From positions 310,001 through 374,000 of the forward strand of contig WION01000015.1 of assembly GCA_015039365.1 (NCBI GenBank): a DNA stretch of 64,000 bases, given 5' to 3'. This DNA comes from Amanita rubescens (taxonomy: Eukaryota; Basidiomycota; Agaricomycetes; Agaricales; Amanitaceae). Within the stretch, counting starts at the first letter, position 1. Every line of letters begins with the position of its first letter. The position numbers were made by a program, and so were the translations under genes. Below, one piece after another: positions 10,026 through 55,290 of the stretch. Below the pieces are notes generated by a model. That model was not told where the DNA came from, searched no databases, and worked only from the letters and a program-made list of their open reading frames with translations.

Positions 10026-10304
10026 CCTTCACCAAGCCAGCCTGAAGCCTACTTGGAGTGTGGGGGACGTTGGGACAGACTCGGAGAATGGATATCAGTA
10101 CGCACAACGCAGGACTCACCTTAGGCCCTTTATCATTTGACTAGCACTACCGACTCCGACACCACTCTTTAACACCGTATTGCGCCGATGGCATCTCAGG
10201 AAACATCATAGCAGCCTTACAGGGGTCCGTGCTATTGATTCGGATTACTGGGATGACCGCGATCGCGGGAAGTAGCGCCCCACCTCGCCAACACTTTCTA
10301 CCGC
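10026..10304 (+). mobile_element. old non-autonomous LTR element, internal remnant (left piece)
   Basis: This matches 11666-11954 inside the younger relative and joins 12622-12944 across it, so it is internal sequence of an older copy of the same family. Its own left part was cut off by the insertion of copia copy A. I see no coding capacity. Confidence 0.85.
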
Positions 10305-20200: not shown

Positions 20201-20232
20201 ACAATGGAGTTTATCGAATTGGAAGAAGACAT
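14260..20232 (-). CDS. copia Gag-Pol polyprotein, 1990 aa
   Basis: Single uninterrupted frame. Residues 1-230 are a copia Gag of the UBN2 type (LTGSNWLAFERLMTAYL at the start). Residues 230-720 are a long, Ser/Asp/Asn-rich linker. A short Cys cluster (CSKSPSCKCPEC) precedes the aspartic protease motif WMCDSGASHH near 728. The integrase has its zinc pair at about 870 (HQRMGH) and 903 (CNGC), then the catalytic triad near 955, 995 (RSDRGGEF) and 1030. A 400-residue acidic/Lys-rich spacer leads to the RT (RWVYDIKSDG near 1455, YVDDML near 1603) and RNase H (TDADWG near 1773, LSSTEAEYM near 1810). Integrase before RT is the copia order. At 1990 residues it is longer than the usual 1300-1500 because of the two linkers. 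No classical CCHC knuckle is evident in Gag. Confidence 0.97.
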   Translation of the reverse strand: MSSSNSINSIVPVLTGSNWLAFERLMTAYLNSQGLGAHIDPKLDWPRDLEPSEKAAIKTSDIKPDQLKTLKEIRKEYVEFKEDNMKAKGYITLKLAPNLVHLVDDKNDKAEVLWKSLKDKFGKQGLAATFGLYRQIVDWKLKENSNPNTQVPHLMDLINRVSNQGVTLTVKMQIMTILHALPPSWDSFVANLLAHSADDDTVDEFLNLISEEWSRRKGNRNNANTSVVTRGNKHSNSQVVANMARQQLQQGQPRTPWNSYRGKSFRGRGGRKPMGNRRNPTQHTSTGGPSNGPKHTPGQSQTPFRPQWAGQVPNQSKGPNWERNKAAKAKNRANKLAARTAAQSTLGSGHAMASSTSASLPLIARIGDQVMTDFDEEFVPKIYKYKGTRAVPTDDFMGRIDEISEDSGDSVSRDVQKVRTESTDYSDIFDSAIFADTKDTQSLDDLASPIFASSSISHHQTDNEGYQTDNESHQSEANSSGYEGLYTDEEPEGPMPGSFDDEQISWWYVHTRQYYVDQVRRANLEARRMNTNARTLEHLQNMLRGMVNDHDTVSLRPESVSSSDLNYFYQSDQDSVYHTAPESMASSQIPTRPITPYEDFFNLYDYPTNRTIDTVPVIPSNVPIVNPTPRRSTDLHNLYNFDANMRENERYRQNMSNLQNLPNYGTFSELYNQYNLDEFIIEENNRRRANVINIGHLQDPYNLPCSKSPSCKCPECYKNNKGLTIWMCDSGASHHFTAHLEDFVSYKKYEVPTSVFTADNQADILGIGTVILDHTLKNGSISRLKLYPVLHMPSATLRLISNGTLCKQGFIAKQDNDRISFYREGSENASLEGFPGDGNETLMWTEGQIIKPSNYKLMMTTINVVGYEIWHQRMGHPSQQILKLGSKNLEGFPPLTIPKDLEPCNGCLKGKAVSQSFPLSEKRATQPFERIHYDLMTFPIQSYHKQKYLLVIFDDCTSHVWVKPLQKKSNVAVVFEGWHKQIYNQYGYNIKIVRSDRGGEFMSTNIQDYLTDVGIIHEKSTPYIHQQNGKVERMNRTLWEKSEALRLHASCPQSWWNFAIETAVHVYNRTPLRRTKWKTPVENLTGKKPDVSYFKIFGSKAWVFIPHESRENKLTPRSEIMTFIGYEPNAKAYRFMTNTNQLRVSTQAEFDETKFPRAKPQDENYTKNLDPIRPIEQDNSENSDKNISDGKPDNEGDISSEQQHSDDDFFDFNFENHPSSDSSDDDDDDTKWDDKLESFFEKKDTSSKDKGVELDQPTGVELDLPVQSLKDKPTKGKGKGTAKKPVEPTRRSERSRKPVIQKDNAYGNKTPLEIEKEITEEQDVVRELIQDLKEKDKSDPRLDVTIRYSLRSKIRQHIDKVKLLYSTLHNAQINEMSCLIKEQGNGFLNYLLAQAIPAIDISRDNIREYQYKDIQKVKITDPKSYEQWETAMNDEMKSLNDRKIWELAELPHNRTPIKCRWVYDIKSDGRKKARLVAKGFSQRPGLDYDETFSPVARYETIRLLLAISVLEKWDIEALDVKTAFLYGDLEADIYMQQPEGYVVKGQEQKVYQLKKAIYGLKQASYAWNKQANKSLEDLGFIRCLSDSGVYVRRKDDTIIVCIVYVDDMLFMGDNTPEIHKVKNAFMKKWECHDLGKVKEYLGMQINYNKNMGTLIIDQHAYAKKVVTRFGLENCKPTRTPLPTGYIPTAATKECTAEMRSYFQQIIGSLLYLALGTRPDITYQVILMSQFCANPNEEHIQKALYIVRYVNTTVQTKIVYNGLNKEGFVAFTDADWGADKITRKSVTGYIVKLAGGAISWVSRKQKVVALSSTEAEYMSMSDTSRQIVWIESLMSELDFPIKTIFLCCDNQGAMFLASNPAQEHRSKHIDIRFHYIRECVESEKIKLTYIPTNEQVADIMTKNLPYSKFVIFRMKMGLILDDSQISLTNHIKASQTFANYIKSKTLNKSPGQHSKIFERIQDLEVRGYLEEIFKYYERENDKLTTLLKANK

Positions 20233-29573: not shown

Positions 29574-30048
29574 TGTTAAAGTTATCTTATCTAATCATAT
29601 AAGATAACGTATATCTTATCTTATCTCATATAAGATAACACATCATATCTTATCCTATAGATTAGGATATACAGATTAGATGTACATACATGTATATTCA
29701 TATATACATGTACATATACATACATAGGATATTCGACATATCCTATAGTCGCTTGCGTCATCCCATTACTGCGGTAGACGCGTCATAGCTGCGCTAGACG
29801 TCATAACATACGTCATGCACAGCTCTTCCTCTATTTACTATACTTTGTACTTATTAGGATACTAGTAGTATATAAGACTACCTGTACGTAGGTACAAATA
29901 AGAACCTTCCTTCTCCTCTTACCACCACATCCTATATCCATAGGATAGTGAGTTATCGTTAGAGGTCGTCACCGCCACTCTACACTCCACTCTAAGTAAG
30001 TATTCACTTTAACACTTAGACGCTGCGCTGCTGGGCGTATCTTCGTCA
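29574..30048 (+). repeat. 3' LTR of the gag-only element
   Basis: 475 bp, apparently identical to the 5' LTR, followed by the target duplication ttaag at 30049-30053. Confidence 0.95.
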
Positions 30049-30731
30049 TTAAGAATTAATCTAGACACCGCTGGGTTACAGCTGAGTGTATTCCTAATCT
30101 AGAGAAGTCCCTAAGGGCACATTCTCGATAGGCAGAGTGTACGGTCAACAATGTGACCTCATCTCACCCCTTATACTAGAATCTATTATTACTTGTACAT
30201 ATATTAGGTATTTTACAGGATCGAAGATCCTGATGATGGTATAGCGTGGTTCAATACGTCCAATCACATCACACTGCCCAAGCGGAATACAGTGTGGGAC
30301 GTCACCCTTTTATACGGTAGGTAATAACCGGTGAAGTTCACACTTCACTAGTGAGCCAATTTCTATTGACGCAGTAATGGTCCACTGCGAGATTTTTAAG
30401 GCGATCTAGGCCAGTTTTTAACGTCATCCAAGACTGTCCCTTGTACAGGGATACTCGTAATTTAGACCGCTGAGTAATTAACGGGGTCCCCTTAGCCCTG
30501 GGTCCGGGCGTATACAATCCAGGTAAGCGGATGACTCTGAGTCTATCCCTCACTTCCCAGAAGGGTTAGCCAAGTGCGGTGACTAATCTAACAAGAAAAT
30601 GAAAACCACACTGGGCGCCTCGCCCAGTTACCTTTGTTTTACCTTTTCTCTCCGTCAATGACTTGAGAGTGTGCGTCGCTTGGCTTCACAACCAATAGCG
30701 CCAAAGGCGTCTGGTTTCGGGGCCCATAACC
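30049..30731 (-). mobile_element. copia copy B leader, part next to the primer-binding site
   Basis: Continuation of 21671-22218 across the nested insertion, nearly identical to 8635-9320 of copy A with a few indels. It contains CGCCCGGACCC on the minus strand (30500-30510) and the primer-binding site at 30717-30731. A 71-codon minus frame at 30338-30553 exists but has no supporting features. Confidence 0.92.
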
Positions 30732-31436
30732 TGTTGAAACTAGGGGTAACAAGTCCCTAGCGAGCAGCGCAGTCTAGTACATGGAATGTACTACTTACCG
30801 AGTGTGGTGTGGAGTTGTTAAGAGCTTACTGGAGCTGGGGCTCAACAGTAGACAGTAGAGAGGATAATAGGATAAGGATTGACGCTACTAGAGTACAGTT
30901 TATATACTACTAAACTACAAATAAGTACAAAGAGTCTTATCAGTATGAGTCAAAGGTATTTGACTCATAAGGCGTCATTCCACAGCAATGCACAGCTATT
31001 GTACAGCAATGCATAGCTTTGCGCAGCACTTGACTCATCAATTATATTGACTGACTCATCACATTATCAATCTTCAATGTGATAGGTCGATAACCATAAC
31101 GTATATATGTCTTCTATTCTCATGTCAACATATATTCACATCATCAATAGTTCCACTATTATGATTGGATGATCTTATGAGAATATCGCTAGGATATTCT
31201 CATGTCAGAATATGTTCTCATCATCAATCATCCACTATTATGATTGGTAGATGAGTATGAGAATATGTCGAATATATTCTCATGTCAATATATTATCTCA
31301 CACTCAATCATCCACTATTATGATTGGTTGAGAGACGAGTAAGTAACTGAGCGTTATTACATTAGTTAGTGTAAACTAATGATATCACTTATATTTACTA
31401 TATACTGTATGTATATCGTATATTATAAGTTCAACA
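30732..31436 (-). repeat. 5' LTR of copia copy B
   Basis: 705 bp, pairing with 13540-14244. It is followed by the target duplication cacca at 31437-31441, which confirms that the whole 13540-31436 block moved as one element before the gag-only element entered. Confidence 0.95.
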
Positions 31437-31441
31437 CACCA

Positions 31442-33755: not shown

Positions 33756-34494
33756 CTTCTCATGAGTCATCCACTGAAGCAACACAGATCGTTGCGACTA
33801 AGTCGAAATCACGCCGAAATCACGCTCTGGAAAAGGGAAGGAAAAAGCAACCACCGGGCCTGCCGATAAAGATTGGAATGACATAGAGGATTCCAACATG
33901 ACGGAAAATTTAATTTAAGTCTCTCGATTTGGTTGATTGTGTTCATGTAATTGTATCTCAAATGCTCGGTCTCGTTTTGCTCATTACTACGCGCGTGAGT
34001 CACGGCGACTCGAGCTCTACGTAGCGGGACTTGCGGCACTGGTGGCGCCCTCAACGTTTATAACATAGACCTGGTCGTGGCGTATACGGTAAATACTAAA
34101 GTGAGACGTGACGCGTGACGAATAAGAATTCTTTCTTGTTTTTTGGTACTGCCCGCGTAGACACATAGTGGTTAACGTGCCAGTAACGCTTCACCGTCAT
34201 CCTTACGACTGCTATATATGAATATCTTCTAGAACCGAATACGCGGTCAGCGGAGACTCGATGGGCCACATTCATGAATCCTGTCACCTTGACATGAGAA
34301 GCAATTAGGTGAATGTGTATGGGCTTGCCGTTAGGTTAATATCGTGATTTCTCGTGACCTTGCTTCATATGGGAGCGCTTCAAGGCAGCCGAAATGCACA
34401 GCTCAAATGATGTAACGTCCGAAGGTACATAAAGCAGGCTAGCGCAGACTTTGTGGTGCTATCCCAGCACTTGAACTCCAGAGCTTTCTCCTAC
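33756..34494. other. host DNA; left part of a duplicated lectin-like locus from about 34345
   Basis: 33756-34340 has no recognised feature. From about 34345 the sequence matches 39625 onward, the upstream region of the second lectin-like copy, including a conserved ggtacataaagca (TATA-like) about 65 bp before the ATG. Confidence 0.5.
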
Positions 34495-35090
34495 AATGGC
34501 GAATTACATGATCCAAAGCATACAGATGAGACAATATGTCACCTCCGGTAATGAACAACCGGGCGATTCCGTGATCACTGCACCCAGCGCTCCAGTAGGC
34601 AACTGTCTTTACCCCCCGCTCGCGCACTAGTCAGCTGATCTGCATCCGAGACCCTGTTTTTCAGTAGTGATCCCCTTTCTGCGGCCCAAACTATCACGAC
34701 CATCAAGGACTCGTCCAATGGATTATATATCAACATGGTCCAGGGATCCGGAGTAGGTTCACTGTTTTCATCTAATCATGGATGTTCTCAATTTGTAAAG
34801 AACCTCATATGGTCCTCGGCCTCATATGATTGGAACGTTGTCCGAACCTCTGATGGTTACTATCAGTAAGCCACAACGAATCTTTGGAGTACCCGGAGGC
34901 TTGACCTGATTTAGGCTCATTCCCGCTGATGGTCAAGACCTGTACTGGACTCAGGATGGTAGCGGCGTGCCCGATGTAAGCGTCATTTGGAGAAACAAAA
35001 GAACAAAACTCACTTTTACCTACAAGATTACCCTTTTGTCGGGAAGCAGCATCATAGGCGACATAGCCTATTGGACGATCAATTAAGGGA
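34495..35090 (+). pseudogene. beta-trefoil (ricin-B-type) lectin-like gene, decayed copy 1
   Basis: ATG 34495 begins an N-terminus of the YMI-x-(S/N)-(I/V)-Q form, then an intron (GTAGGC donor near 34606, ttcag acceptor near 34662), a GLYIN exon, and further exons with W-N-x-V-x-T-x-D and LIPADGQDLYWTQDGSG. These spaced aromatic and Gly/Asp motifs are typical of carbohydrate-binding beta-trefoil lectins of mushrooms; this is a lectin fold only, without any enzymatic toxin chain. The copy contains an in-frame TGA before the LIPADG segment and unclear splice sites, so I call it a pseudogene. A second copy is at 39769. Confidence 0.55.
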
Positions 35091-35880
35091 GCGGCACTTG
35101 GAGCAGAAACCATCATGCTCTCTGGGGGAAGTATCAGAACGCCATTGAGAAATTGTGCATAGTAAATTGAAATACACGTACGCGCGATCGTCGATTGTTG
35201 TACGGCGATGTGGTATATTCGTCAGCTCAGAAGACACGCAGGCCTTGGTAAATGGTCTAGGTACTTGGAGACTGCTCGAGTAACTACCGACGTTTGCGCC
35301 CGGTGATAAATCGACAGCTTTCTTTCAAGTCCCATGGCCACTGGCGCGTCCCACTCGTCGCTCATAGACACAGCTAACCTAGTCATAGATTCTTAACATA
35401 CACTCCGCATGAAATTGGGGAAAAACATAATGATCACGAGCGGGCCACGCTTCCGTCCAATACATCTCACCAGCAGGATGACTTGGCGTCGAAAACGCGG
35501 TACAAATCATCGACTGCTGGGTCGAGTCACTGCAACACAGTCGTAGGCACATGGAAACAGACCTATGCTTTTATTATCTAGGTAAATCCGCGAGCTATAA
35601 GAGCCTATAACTGTACGGGAAATCTTCCCGACCGTCAGTATCGCAGTCTCTTATCTGTTAAACTCGTTGATATTAATCAAAACCAAGGCGAGATAACCAG
35701 AATACAAGTCCATTTGCTGGCGTTGGGCAACAAAGTATGGATGAAATAAAAGCGTGAAGGTGCAGTATACATCTGGAGTTACGGGCGCATTAAGGTTGCT
35801 AATTAGGAAAGTGGTATTCTGATTGGTATCTGTCACGCCGACAATTGAGATTTAACGCAATGGAGCCAAAGGGGAACATA
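35091..35880 (+). other. downstream half of the lectin-like locus, uninserted version
   Basis: 35150-35219 matches 40420-40487, and 35220-35880 matches 54527-55170. It is therefore the intact arrangement of a locus that the 14-kb transposon split elsewhere. ggtatatt at 35212-35219 corresponds to the target duplication gatatatt. Coding remnants are visible (ATGATCA-containing segment near 35430) but no intact frame. Confidence 0.65.
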
Positions 35881-40360: not shown

Positions 40361-40487
40361 CTGACGATTAGGACAGCAGAGCAGAAACACTCCTGCTCTT
40401 TGAAGAGAGTCATTGAGAATTTGTGTATAGTAAATCGAAATACTTATGCGTGTGATTGTTGACTGCTATTCTGCAATGTGATATATT

Positions 40488-40511
40488 ATGTGCCGCGAAA
40501 TTGGACAAAAC
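40488..40511 (+). repeat. left terminal inverted repeat of the 14-kb transposon
   Basis: CCGCGAAATTGGACAAAAC at 40493-40511, preceded by five less conserved bases. The inverted partner is at 54495-54518. Confidence 0.75.
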
Positions 40512-41184
40512 TCTTTTCAGAAGGAAAAATATAGATGATCATTGATGATCTGTAGTGAATGTCAATGATCATGACTGATCATCATAAATCGTAATTAATG
40601 AACATGTACACTAGTGAACAGAAGTGATACAACATGACCCGTCGTAATTGCTTAGTTTCCCATCCACAAAGGTCCTCATGAATCAACCATGATACATAAT
40701 GAACTTCAACATAGATGAAGTTTTACTCAAATTTGATTCCTCCTTGACCATGGGTGACCATTGATGACCATTGGTGATCACTACCGAGTCTTTCCAAACC
40801 AAAACTTTGGTGGTCAATGTCATTTATTGACGTCGGGAAGCTTATGCAAATACTATGATACCGTATTGGACAAAATCCGCTTGTATATAGAAATTTGAGA
40901 CGGATTGTATTGCGGCCGTGCATTGGCCATAGTAGCCATTTTCTGACAAAATACCCTATGTTCTTCCTACATCTCTCTCTCTCATTCTAGCATGGCCTGG
41001 CTGCGAAGCAATGCTCCTCGTAAATAGTGATGACAACAAATTGTCTCGGCATGACCAAGGGCGCCCTGTGGCTCCGAAAATCAGTGATTAGTTTATTTGT
41101 ATGGGAGAAAACGAAAATTTTCCTCGTACCACTTCCTTATTCTCACTTTCGCTTTCTTCATTCTAGCTTCTCTTATTTCCTACC
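40512..41184. promoter_or_regulatory. left subterminal region with TGATCA repeats
   Basis: Repeated ATGATCA/TGATCA/TGACCA words at 40530-40600 and 40740-40790, matched by a similar cluster inside the right end. Such subterminal clusters often bind transposase. A second TTGGACAAAA in direct orientation sits at 40866. The stretch also forms the upstream region of the HECT-like gene. Confidence 0.55.
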
Positions 41185-44100
41185 ATGCCACTCCTTTTAT
41201 TACAACGTGGGCGATGCTCTCAGTCTTCTTGCCTCTGCAAGAAGACCGTCTTTGTAGACACGGAGGCCTTGTATCGGCAGCAGCCAATCAATGCCAACGA
41301 GGTTTGTCTTTGCGGACACAAGTGGTGGATGCATGTTCCTCGTTCTCCCCCGTCCACCGAACGTGGTACCTGTCCATCTACTCAGTGCGGAGGTTTTCAT
41401 TCCTCGGTAGGTCTCCAGGCACTACATTGTAGTTCAGATCCTCATGAAAAAAATTGGTAGACCGACATACCTCACACCGGGCCTTGTGTTTGTGGTGCGC
41501 TCTATGACGCCCACGAGCTCCTCTCAGCTCCTTTTGTGCCTGCTGATAGCGCTTCTGCTTCTGCTGCTCCTTCTGCGTCCACTGCCATCATTGCCAGAAC
41601 CCCCCCTGCGCACGCGTACACATCTGCTGGTTCAGGAGTAATCCAACCGTGGATTCCCCCCCCAGCTGTCATAGCCAACCAACAGCGCCAGGATGCGGCA
41701 AGACGCCACCGCAAACCATCGAGAGTACAACCCCCAGTTCCTTCTGTATCCAATCCACCCGCTCTTTCAGATTCATCATCTCAATACCTTCAACTTAATT
41801 GTGCCATCTGGCCATTCGTCGTGAGCACTTATAAATTCTGAATCGTTAAATCTCTTAACACTCACCCCTCAGGTCAAGAAGCCAATGTCTTCCGTATACC
41901 CAGTACCTGAAACCTCCTTTAATCGTCGTGACCTTGGTGAGGTCATGCAGTGTCTTTTAGAGCACCACCTCGTCTTCTCAGTAATTATAGCTCGTTCCGA
42001 AGGCCACCCATGGGAACCAATCAACAATGCCTTGTACGAACAACTCGACAAGCACGGATATGTGCTTACCCGCCGTCAAGGAGACGTAGGCCAACAATTT
42101 ACGCGCCTATCCTGGGACATACTAGCTGAAAAAAAGAATAAAAAGGGCAAGAATGTCAAACATACGTTCCAATCGGGCATTGCAGGTCCAACCTCTTTCA
42201 CTTTTGACTTCTTGGATGAGCAAGGGACGCCAGTAGAGCTTGAAAACCCGGCCAATGAGCATCCTTTTATCCTAATTGGTTTGTGACGTTTAGCTTCCCC
42301 TTCGCTCAACCGCTAAGCCATTACAACTTAGCTCCGAGAGAGGAACACCTCAAAGGACCCGTCTCTGATGGCGGCGTCCCTTGCCCAGACGGTCCCCATG
42401 CGTGTTTTCCATGGCGGATGTTCGCCCCATACGACTGGGGAACTAAAGGAACGAACGTCGAATGTATACCCTTGAGATGTCCTTCTGCAGCTTCTACGAC
42501 CTTAAACGCACCTGTAAACACCAATTCTCTCCGTCGCACTCGGTCTCCATCGCCTGAGGTGAGTGTAACTCACCGCAGCCATTATCCTCTTCTCACAAGT
42601 CCTTGCCAGCTTCCCCGAAACACGAGGCCACGCCAAGGCACTGTGTCCGAAGAACCTCAAGAGGAGGATGATCTGCCTGACATCGACGAGCTTCCGCGAC
42701 TGGATGTCTTCGATTGGCAACATCGTATCCGCTTAAGCAGGGCGGGTATTTTTGCTCTCACAGCCCCTACAGTTGAAGATGCATCAGCCACGTTAATCGA
42801 TCTATTGAAGTGGATAATTGGTGGTTCGGCCCCCTATCTATATTTCCCTCAAGACCCCAATATTTATTGTAACATCACCAGTGCCGCAGCTTTGCTCCAC
42901 TACCAGCCAAGGCCCTTTTACATACAAAAGTATGAGAGATTATAATTAATATGCAATGACGTGCGTGGTTACTCACTCGTGTTTAGACCCAACGGAAAGC
43001 ACACCTCCCTTGGAGATGGTCCAGCCATTGCTGTCTACCAAGGCGCGCTCGACATGCGCATCGGGTCAGAACGATGGACTGACATCAACGATGGCTTCTA
43101 CCGCACATTGTCTTTTTCCCCTGCGGCCGCCCATGTCAAGAAGAGTTCACTTGTTGAATTCAAAATAGACGGGATATTGACCGCATTGGTCATGGTGCAA
43201 TTGCTTGCAGAGCCATATCCAGTCAATCCTTTCCTTGTATACGCTGCTTTCTTTTCGGAAAGGGAGCCTCTCGAGTTTCTAATGGATCCAACATCCCCCG
43301 ACGATGAATATAAACGTGACCATCTACTCGCAATGATACCCGACAAAGAAACTCGTAGGGCCCTCGCCGAGCTCTTCAAGCTCGACAAGAAGAAAACGGT
43401 ATCAGCCCTTCAAGCATCTCGGCACCCCCTCTACCGTCGAGCATTTGAAGACCCTATCGGAGCTGGGGCCACTTTTTTCAATGAAGCGCGCGACGACGAC
43501 CAACACGAAAACATCAGGCGTCAGCTCTTCAACGTTTTGCTAATTGGTCACGACGAACCGTGGAAACACCCCCATTTCATTGCTTTTTCGCGTGGGCTTC
43601 GTCTCGGTCTGCTTAGGGTCAAGCACATTGTCAAGGTAAGTCTTTGAGCATAAAAGATTTATCTATACTCACGGAGCTCCGATTCTGGCAGCCCATAGAT
43701 GTATTGGAGTATGAAGATGAAGAGGACATCTTCCTCTACGCCATCCAGCTTGTTATGACCCTTTGGAACAACCGCATCACTGGACCCGACGACATCATGA
43801 GGCACGTCCAATATCGTCTGATCAATCCTTTCAAATCCCCGGAGGCCATGCTCTTCGCAGAACTATTCCATACACGATTCAGCCACTGGCTCCGAGGGCA
43901 AGGACATCCCCACGAATTGGTTGGAAACTTTATATCTGACGAAATGTACCAAAAAAGTTTGAAAACCCCAAAGGCGACGCGCGCGAAACTCCTGTGGAAG
44001 GCTGTTTCAGACTTTGATGTATTGCCTGCGGCCACTGGACTCTGGGCCATTACCGTAAGTCGTCGTCTTCATATTACCTGTGATCATCATTAAACACGTC

Positions 44101-44323
44101 GTTTAAGGTGAAATTAACTTTTGATCCATACCTGCCAGCCACCGAAAGCCATGTCCCCCTCAAGATCTCCGTATGCACCAAAACAATCTACGTAACTTTG
44201 GGTCAGGCTTTGATTAATCTTCTTATTGAGCCCGGACACCTACATGACCAAAAAGATACCCGTTTTGATGTCTGGATCCACAAGTTGCTAACTCATGCTA
44301 CGAAGGACTACAATAGGGCGTAG
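41185..44323 (+). CDS. HECT-like protein with N-terminal CxCG-H motifs, 948 aa, seven exons
   Basis: Exons 41185-41406, 41461-41820, 41873-42282, 42318-42929, 42987-43635, 43677-44054 and 44108-44323 join with consistent phases. The N-terminus has two similar Cys/His motifs, CLCGHKWWMH (residue 45) and CVCGALYDAH (residue 82), probably zinc-binding, then a Pro/Ala linker. From about residue 535 the protein resembles the HECT ubiquitin-ligase fold: FKIDGILTALVMVQLLAEPYP like the N-lobe, and TFDPYLPATESHVPLKISV like the C-lobe around residue 892. The catalytic Cys of HECT enzymes would align with His in ESH, so ligase activity is doubtful unless another Cys serves. The 42283-42317 intron is only 35 bp and tentative. 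The gene is convergent with the integrase gene. Confidence 0.6.
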
Positions 44324-44481
44324 AGCGTAAGGTTTTCAATAATCGTATATATCCGTTTTTCTACAAATTGTCTGCTGTCGATACCCCTAGTATACCCTCT
44401 TTAATCGCAGACTTTTCACATGTGCATAATGCAAAATTGGCATAACGTCATACAGTATACACGGTACTAGCGTATAATTAG
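44324..44481. terminator. shared 3' region between convergent genes
   Basis: 158 bp between the stops of the HECT-like and integrase genes. It must contain both polyadenylation regions; it is AT-rich but no defined signal can be picked. Confidence 0.4.
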
Positions 44482-46227
44482 TTAGAACAAGTCCCGGCAC
44501 CACGCAAGCGCTCGAATCCAAACCATAGTGTATACACCCATATCATGCGTACCCATGTCAAACTCCGTCGATACTAGCGTGTTCAGCTGGTCTACTTGTT
44601 CACGCATCAGCGGGCACCCAGGTGGTTCGCATGGAACAGCGTTCAACGTGCCAGGGGCATAGTTGTCAAATGGTAAGTTTTGTCCCTGATCTTGCAACTG
44701 GCGCAAGAGGTCATCATCCTCCACGGCTTCCCAATCGATTCCAGCTCGCCCCGTAGCTTCCCCTTGTCTCTGCCTTCTATATTCTTCACGCCTTCTTAAG
44801 CCGCGCAAGAACATGTCTCGCGGTGACATGTTCGTTTGCTCCTTCAGGCGCATAATATGAGCGTTCCAATGTTCCGCCCATTCAACGATGTCGTCATTAA
44901 GACGGTCGAGGAAAAGGTGGTGCACAAGCCAAAGGTGCGCAGCCGAATCCACTCGTAATCCATGGAGAACCTCTAGGCCCTCAAAAAAGGGCTTCCATTT
45001 TGACACGATGGACCGTCCAACTTCAACCCATAGCCTCTCTATACGAATGTTATGCACAGACCTGCAACATGAGTTAACAATCTTGCTAAAATACTGAAGC
45101 GGGATCGTTATCTCTTACCTTCCCCAGATGTAAGATCCACGCCCATCGCCACGTTGCTCGATCATGTATGCCGCGACCCGTACATTTTCTGTTCCATGAT
45201 CTCCACGCACACGACTAGGAAGACCATGATTGGCCACTGCTGCAAGAAACACATCTAACACCGTAGCCGCCCTGTTGTTGGTGCTACATTTAATTCCCGT
45301 AATAAAGCGGGACTTCCCATCGATAAACCCATGAATCACAAATTTCCATCTTATAAGCTCTTAAGTCTCGTTAGCGAGATACATCAATGTGATGAATAAC
45401 GACTTACTGTGATTTCCGTCGTGATGCCACAGAGAATTGACTTCTGGCACGGAATAGACGCGTCTCGTAATAGGCCGGTTGACAAAACGCGCTTGTAATC
45501 CTCTCACCCTTATGAGAGAGTCCCGGACGCGGTCACGAGCTACGCGATAACCTTGCGTTCTAAGAGCAGCTTTGACAAACCCGAGGCTGTAGTTGTTGTA
45601 GCGGCGCAGGATGGGCGTCACGAGGTCATCCAGTAGCTCTGGCTCGTCTCGGAAGTCAAACTGTGTTGGTCCCGTGGGATGCCATTCCCTGACAAGTGTT
45701 CCGTCCGGTTGAGCCACAGTTTGAACGACAGGAGGGGCGGACGTTGCTAGATTGTGCTCCAACATGCGTCGGCGCACAGTCCTGGAGGAACATCCTACTT
45801 CCTTCCCAATATCTATGAGGGTTAAACCCTGATTCGCGTACGCCAACCAATTCACATCTATTTCAATCCGTGGGCGGCCAGTCTGGCTGCTTCTCTGTCT
45901 CTGGGAAACGGGAATCGGGTCCCTTAGCAAATTGTCATGTGCTGCAGCCACTGCAGCTTCCAAAGCGTCGAGCATGTTATCGACTGAGTCCTGTAAGGAC
46001 ATCCAGTCGTCTTCTGTCAATAAGTTCCGGGCCTGCAACAATAAAACCGTGAACAACCAGAAAATGGCAAGTAATTATCTTACCCTATTCACGTCCACAG
46101 CAAAAGCGCGAACTTCATCCACCTGGGCTTGAAGGCGAGTCACGTCACCATTTTGGATGCGCAGAGTCTCATGCACGCGGCGTCCAACGTTTTCGTATGC
46201 ATGTACCAAAGCCTGTAAGTAATCCAT
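44482..46227 (-). CDS. DDE integrase/transposase (rva_4-like), 529 aa, four exons
   Basis: Exons 46227-46084, 46032-45408, 45359-45119 and 45061-44482 join in frame. An N-terminal helical region is followed by a helix-turn-helix segment (LIDIGKEVGCSSRTVRRRML, residues 117-136) for DNA binding. The integrase core has the first Asp in WHHDGNHKLIRWKFVIHG (about 255), the second in RVRGDHGTENV (about 313) and the Glu in VHNIRIERLW (about 345). The GNHKLIRW and S-x-HN-x-RIERLW signatures are those I know from the retroviral-integrase-like core domains found in animal and fungal mobile elements. The C-terminus is helical with HLWLVHHLFLDRLN. It is the likely transposase of the surrounding element. 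The start is 113 bp from the divergent gene at 46341. Confidence 0.85.
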
Positions 46228-46340
46228 AACACAGAATTGGCAAACGGGCGTGGGGTCAGTTGTTGAAGTGATATTTTTGGGGGGACAGGGCGGAACTTGA
46301 ATTCCGAAAATTTTTCCAATCGATTCTGATTTCCTTGTCT
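46228..46340. promoter_or_regulatory. bidirectional intergenic promoter region
   Basis: Only 113 bp separates the integrase ATG (minus) from the ATG of the 514-aa gene (plus), so the two genes probably share regulatory sequence. A purine/T-rich run ttttgggggga lies at about 46273. No TATA box is evident. Confidence 0.55.
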
Positions 46341-48057
46341 ATGGCCACACGCCGCTCTTCTCGACAGCATAGGGCTCCTATGAATCCAGAACAGAGTATT
46401 GTACCCCTTGTAGAACGGGGTTCTGGGAGCAACACCCCTGTTACGGTGGGACAGGATCCTGGTACTCCGCACGACGTAACCGCATCCGATGTCTCCAGTA
46501 AGTCGTCCACATAATCCTTATCGTACAATCTTTTGATAACTGGGGTATAGACTCCATGGTTGTCGTGGATGGACATGATCACAACGCTGTGGCCGAACGC
46601 GATGTGATTATGGCAGATCCTCCTAGTAAGTCGTGTAATCTCCATTCCCAATTCAGTCCCTCACTAGAAGTCGCTGTCGACTATAACAGTTACGCAGGAG
46701 TCGCCTGCACCAACTCAACCCATACCCGACGAATCTGATGGAGAGGAGGATGTGGGCGTCGAAGCATTGAACGAAGAACATTTCCAACAAATGTTATCCC
46801 AGGCCACCGAGTTTGGTTATACTTTTAACCCCAACACTGTGGTTGGCGAGTCAAATGCAGTGGCGGTAGCGGAAAATTCTAGTGAAGGTGTTGAAGGTAC
46901 ATGGGAACCTGCTCCGGTGGAAGCCAGTACGATTGATGATAACGGGGTCAATATGAATGATGCTGAACAGCAAACGACTGCTGTCGCCCTCGCTCTCCAA
47001 AAAGCGCCGAACGATTTTATCCTCGCTGTCACGTTGATGAATTTGGGTCCAGAACCCTCACTCGACAAATTGCTCCGCTTCTTCAAGAGAAGCACAGACA
47101 CCAACACTCGTGCGCTCTGTCAGTGCTTGGATTTGCTTCCCAGCGAGGAGGTCAACGTAGGAACGGCCAGGAAGCCCGTCTTCATTCGCAACCTGGCTCA
47201 GCTTCGCGGCGATCCAGACATTCGTTATTTGTTCCTAGGAACCCTACAAGAGGTTCAAGATGAACCCGGCAATCGCCTGGAGCCATGTATAGACTGCCCG
47301 GAGTCAGACAGCTACCGAAGATTCCCGGTGTCACCTATTGCGTCGTCCATTCCTCTCTTAATTGTCTATTTTGAATACCAGGTTAGTGACTCTCCCAATA
47401 TACAAATGGATAGCTCACATTCGCTCGAAATTACAGGGCATCTCTTCTTCTCATCGTGTTTCTGTCCCCGCTACGACGTCGAGCATGGGATCTACAAGTG
47501 CAACTCCGCAGAAGAACACCAAGCTAACGCTGGATACGAACGTCGAAAACTACCTTGAGGCCACAATCGATCCGTTCTTGATCACGATTTACCACGACCA
47601 TGTTCTTCCGCATCGGCAAGCCAACAAAACATATTCGAGTATGATATTGGCGCGGATTATAGAAACGGCGTGTGGAGAAGTCAACGCCAACTACGAACCT
47701 GGCAACGCCAGATCTCACAAACACCGAACCCATAATGGACCCGAAGTTTCCCTGGATGACATTGTAATGTTCTTTGGCAAAAAAACCCCTTCCCATTTGA
47801 GGAATGTTAAGGGAGCTGTCACCGCCCCGTCGACATTCAACAACTATCGCTCTTGGCACTCGCAAGCCCAAAAATGCCTCAAAAAACTGAAAGGGAAAGA
47901 CATATTAGCACAAGGAAACGTTAAGGACGCGTACGACTTAACCCATACCTTGTTATTCACCACTCTAGAGGAGATTAGCGGTATTGAACCGAGGGACCAA
48001 GGGTCATGGATAAGTTTCATGCAGAGGGTCCAGTTATTGGAAAGCGTAGCTTGGTGA
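46341..48057 (+). CDS. transposon-borne protein of unknown function, 514 aa, four exons
   Basis: Exons 46341-46497, 46551-46625, 46690-47381 and 47437-48057 join with matching phases. The N-terminal 100 residues are Ser/Thr/Pro and acidic (ATRRSSRQHRAP start, then PDESDGEEDVG). A middle region has Leu-rich helices (LDKLLRFFKRSTDTNTRALC) and two Cys (CIDCPES). The C-terminal 200 residues look globular (ATIDPFLITIYHDHVLPHRQ, YDLTHTLLFTTLEEISGIEP). I recognise no family. Its divergent pairing with the integrase gene suggests an accessory role in transposition or regulation. Confidence 0.65.
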
Positions 48058-48928
48058 GGTGGCGAAACAGGTTGTGTTCTTGATTAAATGTTACGTCCCC
48101 TTTCTCGGGGTGATTTGTTGTCCATCTTGCCCAATAGCATTGTGAAGCGCCCAAACACGCAGTGACCACGTATGTTGGTACCCTTCGGGGATAGCCCAAA
48201 AAGGGAAGGGCGAGCTGGAAATGATTGGCGCTACAACGATGCGCAAACCGCCACCCATATGCGACTATAAACCACTAGCCGTCAGCCATCGAATGGCGCG
48301 TACGAAGTAGAATTACTTTGGCAGTGACCACGTATGTTGGTACCCGTCGGGGATAGCCCAAAAAGGGAAGGGCGGGCTGGAAATGATTGGCGCTACAACG
48401 ATGCGCAAACCGTCACCCATATGCGACTATAAACCACTAGCGGTCAGCCATTGGATGCGGGCGCGTACGAAGTAGAATTACTTTGTTATATTATCCTATC
48501 TAACTCGGTGTACCATAATCCCCCCCCCCGTCGCCCATAACGGGGGGCGAAAGAAAGCGAGTTGGGCCTGAGAGGCGTTTATGTAGCACCATTGTTGTTA
48601 TGTGGATTTATTGTGGCTTGTGTACGCGATCTGGTATATTAATCTGACCGGTATATTACCAGTATATTTGGCCCATCAATCCGTCAACAAGAAGGTAAGG
48701 GGTACATAATCGTGCTCGTGACTGAGTTTCTCTTTCGTACGCCTGTCAGTAGTAGCGCGTAGTGTACAGTCTCAATCTTTATCGGACATTGCATTAGTAG
48801 TAATTGAGCGTAAGTCTTGTTGTTTACCATAAAAGAGAAATAAAGCCTGGCGTGTGATGACGGCGAACGTCTCTGACCCCGTGTGTTACACGTTGTTTTC
48901 CCTTTAGCAAAACGTCAAGTCGTTAGAA
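48058..48928. repeat. non-coding interval with a 162-bp tandem duplication
   Basis: 48159-48320 is repeated at 48321-48485 with few differences (each contains CACGTATGTTGGTACCC and ends agaattactttg). Further right are a run of ten or more C near 48522 and a short palindromic cccataacgggg segment. No gene. The repeat lies between the unknown gene and the Spt5-like gene and may carry regulatory sites. Confidence 0.8.
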
Positions 48929-51900
48929 ATGGACGCTCAAGAGGTAACGTTTTAGTGATCTCCGTTTATACAAAACGCGCTCAATACAAGATGATAGCAT
49001 ACCAAAAGAACATATACCAGTGCCGATATAGAGCATGAAGTCCGTCGAAAGAAACAGAGGATTGAGGTACTATGGAATTGGATTCAACGTGATATATATA
49101 CTGAACCCAAGTGTCCAAAGGCACACGTGCGCGATTTTCTCGACATTGAGGCTAGTGACGGTAGTTCCGGAGATGAAAGGGTGGATTCGGACGATGAACG
49201 TAAGTCGCACTATGTCAGGTTTTGAAAAATATACTGATATCACCAAAGTATGCGAAGATTTTATTGATAACAACGAAGAAACTCTAGCTCTAGGCGACGC
49301 CGGAGACTCAGAAGAGGATTTTGAAGGTTACAGTGACAAAGGCGAGGGTAAATCTGAATGTAAGTGTGCCCGACACAAACTATGGTTCGCCGCTGAAGGC
49401 AGCAACGCGCTAGCTGTTCAGTCCGTCAATAGGCCAAATTTCTCTAGGGATTTTGGTCTGTCAGACGTGATCAACCGTTATGAAGCTCAAGCAGCCGCCA
49501 TAGGAGACTATAAATCTGAATGTAAGTGTGCCTGACACAAACTATGGTTCGCTCGCTGAATGCAGTAACGCGCTAGCTGTTCAGTCCGTCAATAGGCCAA
49601 ATTTCTCTAGGGATTTTGGTCTGTCAGACGTGATCAACCGTTATGAAGCTCAAGCAGCCGTCATACGAGATTATGCCGAGTCAGATCTCGAGCACGAGAT
49701 GGAGTCAGATGCCGAGAACGATGTAGAGAGCGAGGGCGATATTGAGGATCATATTAAGGAGATCACTCGGTTGGCTGAGCGCGCCTTGCGAATGCCAAAC
49801 GAGGATGATCCTGGCCTTTGGTTGGTCCGTGTACATGTGGGTTTATCTTCTGACATCCCGAAATCTGGTATTGAACGGTGTCGTAGGACGGCGCTGAGGA
49901 GGAAAGTTTCTTCCTTCTTGAAGACCGTTTAAAAGTTCGGCCTCGATGGGCCATTTCCGTTTTTTTGCCACCGGCCAGCAGACAATGGATCTGCGTAGAA
50001 TCCACTTCTCGAGAATATGTAGAGGAGCTCTGCCAAAATCTATCCACGTTCCCTCACCCCCTCCAGATACTGCCCATACCCATCGACGAGCGTCTGCAAT
50101 GGCTCGGCTGTCGCGACACGACGCCAACTATAAAGGCTGGAACGTGGATTAGGGTGAAGAAAAAGCATGAACTAAAAGAATTACTTCGCGAAGACCCCAA
50201 AGTGGATAAGGGATTGGTCAGATATGCGAATGACCTGGGATACGTGCACAGAGTATTCTCTGACTCGCTTCTCGCCATCTGCCTTGTCCCTCGACTCTTG
50301 GTCCCGATCGAGAGCGACTTTGTTGATGAAGAGAATAGGAAGATATGTAGGAGAAAAAGACGATGCCCTCGGCTTTTACATCCCAACTTACTCAGAGGAC
50401 ATAAAGACGCCGTGCACGTGGTAGATCGTCTAGATCCTAATGTCTGGTGGAATCCGAAGACTCTCTATGACATGGAGCCCATCGTTCGTGGTCAAGGCGT
50501 ATATCAATTAGCGAAACCGAACTGGAAAAAAACAGTCAAAGGAGGGGATAACTTTTTGCCGCCATTTGCATACTACGCAGTATGGCCCCGTTCCGTGTGT
50601 TCTGTTGGTGTCGTGCCTACAATTAATGAACTGAAGCTGTTTGGCGAGGGGATGACCGTCGGAGCGAAGCAGTTACAATTTCCGTCGCCCGATCTTGAGC
50701 TCATACGATGGTCGTTTGACAATCATGTAGCAGCGCCAGTCGAAATCGGTCAAAAAGTGGAGATCAAATCGGATGCAAGAATGATGCGGGGAGTGATTGT
50801 GGATGTACACTTCAATAACGTCGTTGTGGAAGTGAGCGACACAGAGGACAAAATCGAAGTGGATGCTAAGTGCGTCCGGAGGTTCTACGATGTGGGTGAC
50901 TCAGTCATGGTTGTAAAACCATCCAAACAGGAGCGTGAAGGATGGGTAGTGGATGTCTGCGACGATGAACTCGAAATATTTGATCCCCATGAGAAAGAAA
51001 AGGCAAGTGAATGTTCTCAAATCTTGTTTCTAAACGAGTTTAACTTTGAAGCCAGTTTCATGCGAAAAGCTGGCAACTTATCCCGCACGATACGTATGAA
51101 CATGGACTTGCTCGTCGTCGGATTAAGGTGGGGGATACGGTTCAAGTGATTAGCCCCATCTCTCCACATTATCAAGAAATGGGTCAAGTATGCAATGTGA
51201 CCGAATTGGGAATCGAGGTCAAGGGAGACGTGACGAAGGTTTGTGCTTTTATAAAATCGTGGCGATCGCTCTACAATCCATGATACTAGTTCTGTGTGCC
51301 GCATTGGTTTCTGGATGTAGAAACGAGAAATGATGCCCTAGAGCCAGCTGTCTCGGGTGGCTTGGAGACGCAGCTCCGCTACTATGATCGTTACAAGGAA
51401 CTGATCAACACTTGGGTCAGAGTCACGGGAGATAACATATACAAAGGGCTATTCGGCCGTATTCGTGACCATTCTGGCCAACAGATGATGCTGATTGAAC
51501 CAAGATGGGGTGGTCCCGCCGTGAATGTCCACGTCGATTTCCTGCTTAATGGGTAAGTAATCAAACTCTCGTGCGCTCAGCGAGGGACACAAATCTTTTG
51601 GTACAGAGAGGAAGGTGGCCGCGATCTGCGCCTGTATCACGTTGGGCTATACGAAACACCTGCTACAAAGGGATGTCAAATTCAATTCCCCGGTAGAAGC
51701 GAGCCAGAGAAATCAACGACGCCAGGGAGATCAACGACGCCAGGGGCAGATGATGATCCTAACGCGTTCGATTTGACTCAAGAGGAGCGGGCTGAACGAA
51801 CAACGACGTCCGGGGAGAGCGAAACGGTGGGGGAACAACCAGCAACTGTTACAGGACTTCCTCAACTTGAGAAAGAAGTGTCTATGATCTCGTACGGAGA

Positions 51901-52358
51901 TCAAGGTGAGCATTCAAGGTCTAATTGTACACGTCAATGTTCATTTCGTCTCCGAAGTGCTTTCTGCTGACTGGCTAATGAAAAACGGATTGGTGAACAA
52001 GCGTATTTGGGTCTATGTGCGTAACACCGGGTTCAATCCATTCGAACAGGGCGGGGGATATGCGAGGGGCTATTATGAAGGAGAAAGAGCACTGATACTA
52101 TCTTGTGAAGGGGAGGATAAAATTGAGGTCAACTTGAAACAGCAGACGATAATAATTCCGTCGCGTTTCCTGTTCCCTGACATCCCCACAACGAGGGGAC
52201 AAGATGTGGTGGTTATCGATGGCGACAAGGCCGGGGAGGCATACCTCACCCGCAAGCCCAACCATGACGGCACTTTTCCTCTGGGTCGTCGCGGTCACAA
52301 AGGGTTACCAATATGTACCATTGAGCAGAGCAGATTGGCGAGATGCGATCCGAAGTAG
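48929..52358 (+). CDS. Spt5-like NGN/KOW protein, multi-exon
   Basis: The best frame is spliced. Acidic exons of the 5' part (DIEHEVRRKKQRIEVLWNW near 49015-49065; DFLDIEASDGSSGDE near 49140-49180) are followed by FIDNNEETL, an NRPNFSRDFGLSDV exon present twice, and LWLVRVHVG near 49820. The latter with ICVESTSREYVEELCQN matches the NGN layout of the transcription elongation factor Spt5, and GTWIRVKKK, KVEIKSDARMMRGVIVDV and YKGLFGRIRDHSG are KOW-like. The 3' exons join as 50999 to 51054 through a GC-AG intron, then 51240 to 51293, 51555 to 51607 and 51905 to 51958. The stop is at 52356-52358. A first ATG at 48929 is possible but unproven. Cellular Spt5 binds RNA polymerase II with Spt4; a transposon-borne version might affect transcription of the element. 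Confidence 0.65.
49349..49680 (+). repeat. tandem exon-intron duplication in the Spt5-like gene
   Basis: About 165 bp (49349-49512) is repeated at 49513-49680: the aaatctgaatgtaagtgtg donor region, a short intron ending in cag, and the exon encoding ALAVQSVNRPNFSRDFGLSD. Both copies are nearly identical, so it is recent. Retaining both exons keeps the frame. Confidence 0.8.
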
Positions 52359-52716
52359 TCAACGAGAATAGTTTCTGTAAATTTATTATATTATCGGGTT
52401 AATAACTTTTTTTGAGTGGAATCTTATGATGCTTGCAATCGCGATGCGCGCAGAACACAAAATTTACACTTACGATTGTAGGACAAGCCAGAAGCTCTGG
52501 TTTATATATACACTCCAAACTGCCGAAACTACGAGGTTAGTGTCTTATTCGTAATGTCGATTTGTCATGCTTACGATTTTATCTAGTTACTCGGGAATAT
52601 ACGGTATTATAGTCAAACACTCACACTAAGATTGACCACGAGTGAGATCCTTACATTTTAACTGAAATGCGCTGGCGATCACTCTTTTCCTAATTAGGTA
52701 TTAGTAGTGATGATCA
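52359..52716. other. intergenic, inside the transposon
   Basis: AT-rich downstream region of the Spt5-like gene. No feature recognised. Confidence 0.4.
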
Positions 52717-54053
52717 TTGACGTCACGGGCATATTTGATCGGCGTCGGTATAACCGATCAATCGAACAACAATCTTGAAGATAGGGAGACCAAATTGGGG
52801 ATGAAGAGGAAACCGAGAGCGGCAGTGACAACGAAGGCGAGTTTGATGAGACGACGCATTATGCACGTGAACCCGCAACCCCGTCACTCCAGTATCTGTT
52901 ACCTAACGGGCCGCGCGCCCGTTGCGCCCCATTCAAACGTGAGTACGACTCTATTTACTCCATTTACTGCAAGAGCTCTAACCATCGCTCAGCATCTCAC
53001 CTCCACTACAACCACAAAACGTGAGTACAATACCATTCACTTCCACTGATTTCGAGAACTGACGTTTACTGCTTACTTCAGTGCTTATACCACAACCAAC
53101 GTTCGTAAGTACCGCGTTCTAACGTTAGTACGGTTTTCTCTTAACTGCTGACTGCGAGAACTAACCTTCCCTTTAGCACTTTGTTCCACAACCAACAATA
53201 AACGTTCGCAGTCACCGCGTTCTAACGTAAGTACGACATTATTTGCTCAATTGACCGCGAGAACTCACCACCATTAGTCGTCGAGTATAACCACCACAAC
53301 GTTCGTAAGTACCGCGTTCTAACGTTTAGTACGGTTTTCTCTTAACTGCTGACTGCGAGAACTAACCTTCCCTTAGCGCTTTGTTCCACAACCAACCATA
53401 AACGTTCGCAGTCACCGCGTTCTAACGTAAGTACGACATTATTTGCTCAATTGACCGCGAGAACTCACCACCACTAGTCGTCGAGTACAACCACAACAAC
53501 AAAATCGGCCCAAAAAGATCCGCGATGCCGTCCAACGCCGAAAGGTGAGCACACGACTAAATTCCTCGATCACTGGTATTCTTATAGCAGATCCAAAGCG
53601 CCTGCGTCGGAAGGAGGGAGAGGAGGGAGGAATAGTGAGAGTGATGACGGTTCCTCAGTGCGATCCAAAGCGCCTGCGTCGGAAGGAGGGAGAGGAGGGA
53701 GGAATAGTGAGAGTGATGACGGTTCCTCAGTGCGTGCTAGAACTCTTATTTCTTCGTCGTTCTAACAGGTCCCTTAGCTCACTGTATTCACTCGATGCAT
53801 GGATTTATTAGATCCGGGTCCCATTGAATCTGCAAACCATCTCAATAGCCAAAACATCACCGGCATCGAGAGCGACGGCTATGACGCTGACCCAGAGGAC
53901 AACAGTACCCAGGCTGACGTTAGCGCCGATGGTTATGATGCCGACAACGAGGACAATGACACCGACACGTTGTGCTTTATCCGTCAGTACAGCCTCGAAG
54001 TCACCAGCGTTGAGCAAGATGATGGTTACGACGCAGACGAAGAGGACATCTAG
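52717..54053 (+). CDS. gene-like array of tiny exons ending in an acidic repeat protein
   Basis: An acidic exon (DEEETESGSDNEGEFDETTH, near 52800-52860) is followed by at least six short introns with strong GTAAGT/GTGAGT donors separating exons of 23-67 bases. A 24-residue repeat (SKAPASEGGRGGRNSESD core) is encoded twice at 53590-53733. A terminal ORF from ATG 53799 has three copies of a DGYDAD(P/N/E)ED motif and ends at 54053. The continuous reading frame could not be established; frame-preserving splices exist for parts only. No family recognised. Composition (Ser, Asp, Glu) suits a disordered nuclear protein. Confidence 0.4.
53101..53500 (+). repeat. 201-bp tandem duplication of exon-intron modules
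   Basis: 53101-53301 and 53302-53500 are near-identical, each made of two similar modules (CGTAAGTAC ... GCGAGAACT ... AG). Two further introns just upstream (from 52939 and about 53022) resemble the same module. Confidence 0.8.
53590..53733 (+). repeat. 72-bp tandem repeat, two copies
   Basis: gatccaaagcgcctgcgtcg begins each copy (53590 and 53662). The copies are apparently identical and in-phase multiples of three, so the repeat adds 24 residues per unit. Confidence 0.85.
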
Positions 54054-54494
54054 ATCTTGAAGTTGTAGAGATTTGCTCATTAAATCAAAAAAGTAAACTT
54101 TTTAAGTATGCAAACTTGTATATAACTCAGACAATAATTTTGCTCATAAGTTCTGCCGTCTACAAATCATGAAAGAATCACTATTGGTTGCCGATGATCA
54201 AACATGTTCACGAACCCTTCACGAGCATCCACTGTTGTGCTACAGACTGTCGGGCTGCTTGCTAACACTAAGTCACGTTCGTTCATCATTGTCAATGGCC
54301 GGTCACGATGAAATGGCTTCAGAAGGTAAAATCTGTTAACGGTTGGCTCACGTTCGCTCACCCCGCCTCACGATGGATCATCAACAATAATCGGTGATCA
54401 TCAATGATCACCAGTGATCACCGGTGATCACGTTCGCTCCTGATGAATTGTGATGAATGCGAATGATCATACAAGATTATCAATGTTCACTCCG
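54054..54494. promoter_or_regulatory. right subterminal region with TGATCA repeats
   Basis: 54375-54470 contains five or more TGATCA/TGATCAC words in alternating orientation, mirroring the left subterminal cluster. No gene. Confidence 0.55.
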
Positions 54495-54518
54495 TTTTGT
54501 CCAGTTTCGCGGAGCAAA
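54495..54518 (-). repeat. right terminal inverted repeat of the 14-kb transposon
   Basis: GTTTTGTCCAGTTTCGCGG, the inverted match to 40493-40511 with one substitution, followed by agcaaa and the target duplication gatatatt. Confidence 0.75.
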
Positions 54519-55290
54519 GATATATTCGTCGACTCGGACTTCCACCTCGGTCACTCTGGAACTCGCACTGCCTGTTTCATAGATTTAAGCTAAACCCAAG
54601 AACAGATCCTTGTCCGCCATGCAGTCCGAGTTGACTGGGCAAGATTGGTGGAAAACAATAATGATCAGCGGGCCACGCTGCACAATGACGGTATGTAACC
54701 AAGCAACTTGTTTAAATTTAAATCTTACTTAAGTGAAATGTAATATAGGGCACTCTCAGCTATGCAATGGAGCCTTGCCTTTGACATCTAGATAGATGCC
54801 GCTCTCCGTAAGACCGAGATAACTGTGTACGGAAGATCTTTCGAACTAACCCGCTATCATCAGTATCATAGTTCATTATCTGTGATGCTCGTTAACTTTG
54901 ATCAAAATGAGGCGAGGACAAACTTAGTTGCCTACCTGTATTGCTGGCTCCGTTTCCTGTGTCAGGGAATGGACCTGTATTCCGGTTATCTACCATGTTC
55001 AGGACTGAGATTGATCAAATCAAAGAGGGAAGGAGCGACATACATCTGGAGTTACCGACGCCGAAAGTCACAGTTTGCGTATTAACATTACTAATTGGGG
55101 AAGCGGCATCCCGGTTGCTTGCCACGCCCACAACTGAAATTGATCGCAACTGATCCAAATGGGGAACATACCGCTGCAGTTGCGGATTTGCCCATCTGAC
55201 CTCTTCGCTCGGTTGGTGCTGCTCTGGGGACAGGAGTCTTGATCGACATAGGGGTCTATGAGGAACGTATCTATCATTTATCTGCCATGA
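54519..55290 (+). pseudogene. downstream half of lectin-like locus copy 2, displaced by the transposon
   Basis: Matches 35213-35880 in order. Shared landmarks are the ATGATCAGCGGGCCACGC segment (54660 against 35430), tacatctggagttac (55040 against 35768) and tggggaacata (55158 against 35868). Frames are interrupted in both copies. It was once joined to 39769-40487. Confidence 0.65.

Follow-up and report, generated by a model that had tools for sequence, protein, structure and literature searches.

The question raised by this stretch of Amanita rubescens DNA (the window, 64,000 nucleotides, C57:310001-374000) is whether a segment bounded by inverted ends and carrying an integrase-type transposase is a transposon of definite extent, and whether the other genes between the ends are cargo or belong to the element itself. 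The mobile unit covers window positions 40487-54518 (14,032 bp), and we consider it nearly certain that it is mobile as a unit of this extent. Leaving aside the role of its Spt5-like gene, the unit is very probably an autonomous DNA transposon with a conserved set of four genes: open reading frame 1 (ORF1), the integrase, ORF3 and the Spt5-like gene. Searches of the organism's own genome covered the 75.7-Mb assembly of 786 contigs, to which the C numbers below refer.

Extent of the element and its target duplication

The inverted ends, TATGTGCCGCGAAATTGGACAAAAC and TTTGCTCCGCGAAACTGGACAAAAC, align gap-free over 25 bp with 21 of 25 positions identical when T40487 is taken as the first base. They are asymmetric, the left terminus reading TAT and the right terminus AAA (right end ...GCAAA). 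The 19-bp match with one mismatch described in an earlier note on this DNA is present as claimed. The same note gave the flanks as an identical 8 bp, and GATATATT is indeed found on both sides, but the real duplication is the 7-bp GATATAT. Three observations set this length: T precedes ATGTG at all nine left ends shown, which represent seven different flanks; counting this T as part of the element removes the gap from the end alignment; and the empty site of the C223 copy described below then needs just one substitution. A duplication of 8 bp was rejected, the eighth T on the left (40487) being the element's own first base. The boundary features, in window coordinates, are as follows.

40480-40486, no strand: left copy of the target-site duplication, GATATAT (length established from another copy's empty site)
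40487-40511, plus strand: left terminal inverted repeat, 25 bp, starting TATGTGCC (end alignment, pattern search)
40535-40780, no strand: left subterminal TGATCA-rich stretch (equals, but does not exceed, the shuffle maximum)
54360-54470, no strand: right subterminal TGATCA cluster (letters and shuffle test)
54494-54518, minus strand: right terminal inverted repeat, 25 bp, outward end TTTGCTCC (end alignment, pattern search)
54519-54525, no strand: right copy of the target-site duplication, GATATAT (flank comparison)

A pattern of the ends, with up to three mismatches allowed, is found at exactly two positions in the window, where 0.01 would be expected. The motif TGATCA is found four times in the left 400 bp, six times in the right 400 bp and eight times in the 13.2-kb interior; the means in 500 shuffles were 0.59 (left) and 0.50 (right), with a maximum of 4 each. 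The TGATCA clusters noted earlier at both ends therefore differ in standing, since the right one exceeds every shuffle but the left one ties the maximum. These repeats may be binding sites of the transposase.

Copies, empty sites and related ends in the genome

The left 213 bp of the element are present at 100% identity in four places (the window included) and at 68-70%, over partial length, in four more; the right 219 bp are present at 99-100% in five places, 83% in one and 70-72% in eight. Three further full-length copies, in C645, C118 and C223, are 99.82%, 99.84% and 99.65% identical to the window copy, and C65 holds fragments of the element. The full-length units span 14,031-14,050 bp, with identical boundaries between different flanks. 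The C118 copy runs into the contig end, which cuts off its right flank, and the right flanks of C223 and C645 differ from each other. As C645, C223 and C118 have one left flank, they are counted as a single left junction, so that the four full-length copies together give two left and three right junctions. That other copies might carry the same genes and 8-bp duplications holds for the genes, all five ORFs being open in the window, C645 and C118 copies (the Spt5-like gene of C645 differs only by an 18-bp in-frame insert), but not for the duplications, which in the family measure 6-7 bp where present.

Two of the junctions of the full-length copies have near-identical uninterrupted counterparts. 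The joined flanks of C223 match C557/C321 across the junction over 414 bp, with reported identities of 100% and 99%. A single GATGATG in the empty site corresponds to GATGACG at either end of the inserted copy; the duplication is 7 bp long and differs from the target at one base. The right flank of C645 is uninterrupted in C724 and C112 (99%). For the window site no near-identical empty site was found in the genome, the best candidates being longer paralogous matches at 73-80%. The paralogous locus at 35.2 kb, one of these matches, had been proposed as a readable empty site; its similarity to the joined flanks covers 34343-35231 at 72%, with a 165-bp piece at 67% beyond. This match does span the junction, but it crosses it by only 12 bases, and the empty site in C557/C321 is far better.

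Both the modest 72% of the 35.2-kb paralogue and the flank common to some copies would also suit a locus that is no transposon at all, but a cluster of genes or a duplicated segment with repeats at its borders by chance. Set against the precise length of the units, the target duplications, the empty sites and the 165 related ends described next, this explanation is exceedingly improbable, and the empty sites already refute it unless they are assembly artefacts.

A 22-base end pattern, again with up to three mismatches, occurs at 77 + 88 = 165 places in the genome, compared to 1 + 2 = 3 in the reversed control. The right-type search gave 108 matches and the left-type search 77 (controls 1 and 0), and the two sets overlap. 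The place lists run to at most 100 places each; among the matches listed, 59 right-type and 66 left-type ends were analysed for facing pairs at distances of up to 60 kb. There are 24 such pairs among these ends, 23 of them combining an end of each type. Four are 660 bp long and the others range up to 14 kb, followed by pairs of 15.6, 27, 40 and 48 kb, the longest of which may be nested or chance pairs; 15 of the 24 are no longer than 5.1 kb. Target duplications were scored in the 11 places with both flanks readable, of which C34 and C780 share flanks. Duplications of 6-7 bp are present in nine of the 11 places (8 of 10 distinct), with 7 bp in the window, C223, C157 and C109, and 6 bp in C780, C34, C57:467425, C113 and C268. 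The full-length copies elsewhere, the empty sites and the many related ends together bear out the earlier claim of a transposon of this extent.

Several observations weigh against this simple picture. The left flank is common to C645, C223 and C118 (98.8-100%), so the three could represent a single locus, present as alleles or duplicated in the assembly. The copy on C645, a contig of 24 kb, lies between the C223 left flank and a right flank unlike that of C223 and has no target duplication, an arrangement that suggests a misjoin in the assembly or recombination across the 14-kb repeat. The second place without a duplication is a 274-bp relative in C135. The ORF1 of the C223 copy is interrupted by a cluster of small indels that resemble sequencing errors.

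The short relatives in C34, C780, C268, C157, C113 and C135 match none of the four element proteins, the transposase included, as expected of non-autonomous derivatives. Between the ends of the 5.1-kb pair C113:323269-328381 lies a predicted gene for a hAT transposase (PF05699, E 2.2e-22), which marks an insertion nested within a short derivative. In the C473 relative, 10 of 12 kb were examined and contain only one weak, repetitive gene model. The facing ends of C3:40388-80323 and C153:17129-65311, 40 and 48 kb apart, enclose scattered pieces of the Spt5-like, integrase, ORF1 or ORF3 genes in altered order; they may be copies that were rearranged or nested, or ends paired by chance.

A conserved set of four genes

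The gene models were obtained with a small splice-aware predictor and by hand reading, and ORF1 alone is backed by public annotation. The genes of the element are listed below.

41185-44323, plus strand: ORF1, 920 aa, 8 exons (41185-41406, 41461-41820, 41873-42278, 42332-42558, 42610-42929, 42987-43635, 43692-44054, 44108-44323), Cys/His-rich start (gene model and public annotation)
44482-46227, minus strand: integrase-type DDE transposase, 529 aa, 4 exons (46227-46084, 46032-45408, 45359-45119, 45061-44482)
46380-48057, plus strand: ORF3, 501 aa, 4 exons (46380-46497, 46551-46625, 46690-47381, 47437-48057)
48929-52358, plus strand: Spt5-like gene, 972 aa, 10 exons, NGN and KOW domains (profiles, structure search)
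53799-54053, plus strand: small acidic ORF, 84 aa (predicted ORF, open in four of four copies)

ORF1, the integrase, ORF3 and the Spt5-like gene follow one another in this order within 15 kb at 16 of 40 integrase places (one row each), always with only the integrase on the opposite strand. These counts are lower bounds and absences are soft, because part of the candidates were scored (integrase 82 of 95, ORF1 50 of 180, ORF3 44 of 44, Spt5 50 of 202). The Spt5 query in the genome was the paralogue P0122 (the C495 protein) and not the window protein. The 16 places, among which haplotype duplicates are likely, fall into four lineages: the window's four copies; C12 and C495; C9, C418 and C164; and C35, C42, C49, C135, C277, C318 and C719. 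Identity between lineages over the main pieces is 43-47% for ORF1, 25-33% for ORF3 and 49-52% for Spt5, the last taken against the C495 protein. A matching end lies outside ORF1 in nine of the 12 non-window modules, at 4058-4073 bp in six of the seven members of the C35-C719 lineage (in the seventh it would fall beyond the contig) and at 3213 bp in all three of the C9 lineage; in C12 and C495 the pattern found no family end outside ORF1. We consider it highly likely that the four genes are the conserved core of the element. The term cargo, used in the earlier note for all genes other than the integrase, beside accessory functions, is misleading: three of the four travel with the integrase in fixed order in four lineages.

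A different view of the same genes would be that a two-end integrase transposon moves with host Spt5, ORF1 and ORF3 riding along and giving no help in movement. The earlier note had held that integrase genes without these ends would tell against a transposon of this extent, and this applies in part: 24 of the 40 integrase places are without the full gene set and may lack these ends; 20 of the 24 are relatives at 41-57% identity in the row used. The prevalence of facing pairs of up to 5.1 kb (15 of 24) means that ends do not need the genes in cis to be mobilised, and 27 of 45 Spt5-like places, e.g. in C650, C112, C504 and C79, have no integrase match within 15 kb; these genes may belong to another transposon class, be dead copies or be host paralogues. 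Mere passengers would hardly be expected, however, to stay in one order and one orientation at 16 places across four lineages while their proteins diverged, or to have all frames open in three of four copies, and the short relatives that match none of the four proteins are what non-autonomous derivatives should look like. On balance we regard passengers as unlikely. Beside the integrase and Spt5-like genes found apart from the set, it also counts against a conserved core that the pattern found no end on the Spt5 side in the 12 non-window modules. No such gene set was found in other species by a search restricted to proteins of comparable length with short words in common; for ORF1 it returned the protein itself and none of A. 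rubescens' own ORF1 paralogues.

The integrase matches PF24764 at E 4.1e-63 and rve at 3.2e-7, just below the model cut-off, with catalytic residues D253, D310 and E345 (D56D34E). The integrase core proposed earlier is thus confirmed, but the helix-turn-helix proposed with it was recovered by weak matches only. The family comprises 294 related proteins, of which the 120 listed are 31-65% identical; their named hosts are, judged from the names, nearly all mushrooms, with one Rhizophagus. In an alignment of the window protein with the 85 of these 120 that have at least 470 aa, the triad is conserved in 83 of 86 (first D), 85 of 86 (second D) and 86 of 86 (E) proteins. No HHCC-like motif was found in the integrase.

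The annotated F5887DRAFT_916839 (911 aa, 9 residues shorter) matches the ORF1 model at 99%. Neither ORF1 nor ORF3 has a recognisable domain in the Pfam scan. The description of ORF1 as HECT-like could not be upheld: no HECT model of Pfam matched ORF1 or a paralogue at E up to 10, and no HECT chain was found in the PDB by sequence or by a two-row profile. Identification as a HECT ubiquitin ligase was rejected, the label being unsupported without a HECT-domain match. The AlphaFold model of the annotated ORF1, made together with pieces of one paralogue (mean pLDDT, the predicted local distance difference test score, 34.8), for which Foldseek returned nothing at E 0.001, is too poor to weigh against HECT. 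The Cys in 'ISVC' is kept in ORF1 and its paralogue, which alone proves nothing.

The NGN/KOW reading of the Spt5-like gene, in contrast, was borne out by domain matches, a family profile and structure comparison. The family comprises nine A. rubescens protein clusters at 42-56% identity, and the tenth match is a true SPT5 (E 1.4e-6). The family profile finds SPT5 chains in the PDB, with a best E of 6.8e-16, over the central KOW part. With E up to 0.1 allowed, the Spt5-NGN model matches eight of the nine members of the family, the best at 4.3e-6; for the window protein E is 8.7e-4, and its 19.6 bits lie below the curated cut-off of 22.4. A single Pfam KOW model matches four of the nine members, the window protein not being among them. 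Foldseek with the AlphaFold model of one paralogue has chains of polymerase II elongation complexes on top, several of them titled Spt4/5 or DSIF (first match at E 1.1e-16), and the isolated KOW2-KOW3 pair of Spt5, at rank 28, fits the model better (TM-score 0.60). Two features of this comparison detract from it, namely that the paralogue model is poor overall (mean pLDDT 42.4) and that the superposition of the first match is loose (TM-score by target 0.22). Like the host SPT5 of Coprinopsis cinerea (P0130), the element protein is colinear from the acidic start through NGN to the last KOW; unlike it, the element gene, at about 25% identity, is transposon-borne and multicopy. The models for the C-terminal domain repeat (PF12815) and Spt5_N match the true SPT5 P0130, but not the paralogue P0122. 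From these alignments and models we read the element gene as a putative captured, full-length Spt5 minus the repeat tail. It contains one GC-AG intron, at 51003-51055.

Known elements and the possible part of the Spt5-like gene

Like IS3EU and GingerRoot, the element has an integrase-like DDE transposase without HHCC and with the first catalytic D at 100-300 (here D253), and its left end starts with TA, as in IS3EU. According to PMC10045372, IS3EU termini are always TA..TA, target duplications are usually 6 bp and HHCC is absent, and GingerRoot is mostly TA..TA, occasionally TG..CA. The right end of the present element is ...GCAAA and not ...TA, and duplications are 6 bp in five, 7 bp in four and absent in two of the 11 places. 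Because this right end breaks the TA..TA rule, the element was not placed in IS3EU/GingerRoot in spite of the similarity. In PMC12730594 (Kojima 2025), fungal IS3EU elements are described as having 6-bp duplications and TAYGG..CCRTA ends and carrying TET/JBP dioxygenase and alpha-kinase genes. Their inverted repeats exceed 30 bp with TAYGG, whereas those found here measure 25 bp with TATGT. Rust IS3EU likewise has additional genes, the kinase gene being oriented opposite to the transposase; the extra genes here are the Spt5-like gene and two of unknown kind, and no TET or alpha-kinase domain was found by Pfam in the four proteins. IS3EU is also reported as a repeat class in the Ganoderma and Phlebopus genomes (PMC8955403, PMC12411881).

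Among the DNA transposons of mushrooms, the Kyakuja-Dileera-Zisupton (KDZ) elements also carry genes: PMC12730594 describes TET/JBP in Kyakuja and Zisupton of Agaricomycetes, and 8-bp duplications made by Zisupton. Membership in KDZ/Zisupton was rejected, as the transposase belongs to PF24764, no KDZ model matched and the duplications are 6-7 bp. A search of the open-access literature found, by title and start of abstract among the papers listed, no transposon with an SPT5 or HECT gene, and the printed literature may differ.

Going by its protein family, the transposase would bind the ends and the subterminal TGATCA repeats, and cutting and joining would proceed by DDE chemistry. The element's Spt5 might ride on polymerase II and maintain transcription of the long element in the face of host silencing, with ORF1 and ORF3 as possible helpers in transposition or anti-silencing. 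Few transposons are known to carry anti-silencing genes. An anti-silencing role of Spt5 is proposed here tentatively, as the likeliest of the readings yet possible rather than probable, by analogy with the TET-carrying fungal elements (PMC12730594) and with VANDAL elements, which carry VANC anti-silencing proteins in Arabidopsis (PMC10398659, PMC5735166). VANDAL serves as a working analogy in that it is a DNA transposon with an accessory anti-silencing gene; the anti-silencing is reported there and inferred here. The VANDAL proteins, host and transposase are presumably unrelated to those of the Amanita element.

Spt5 is a universal partner of polymerase II, so the element's Spt5 could instead tether the transposase to polymerase II during elongation and direct insertion into transcribed genes. 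Two of the three full-length right junctions look genic, as read from the unannotated letters: the right flank of C645 lies in a multi-copy gene-like family and that of C223 reads as coding. With three junctions only to set beside it, we consider such tethering rather doubtful. That this is a transposon lineage with an obligatory Spt5 of its own, whether for transcription against silencing or for guidance of insertion to transcribed DNA, seems to us a serious possibility falling just short of probable. If true, transcription elongation machinery would have been taken over as a transposon function. The retention of an Spt5 paralogue through deep divergence, in a family that varies between near-identical sites within one genome and has non-autonomous derivatives, would make the way in which mobile DNA secures its own transcription testable in a fungus, and Spt5-like, ORF1 and ORF3 genes in mushroom annotations may be transposon genes.

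Some minor features of the sequence are also recorded. Short tandem duplications are present inside the element at 49349-49674, 48159-48485, 53089-53500 and 53590-53734 (about 164, 165, 213 and 73 bp), the first within the Spt5-like gene, and the same duplications are found in the three other full-length copies. Elsewhere in the window, a long intronless ORF at 2524-6129 (plus strand) encodes the polyprotein of a chromodomain Gypsy/Ty3 long terminal repeat (LTR) retrotransposon (RVT_1, rve, Chromo), and another at 14260-20232 (minus strand) that of a Copia-type LTR retrotransposon (RVT_2). Near-identical repeats surround both polyproteins, e.g. 8632-10026 and 30048-31437 at 98.8%, and are probably nested insertions.

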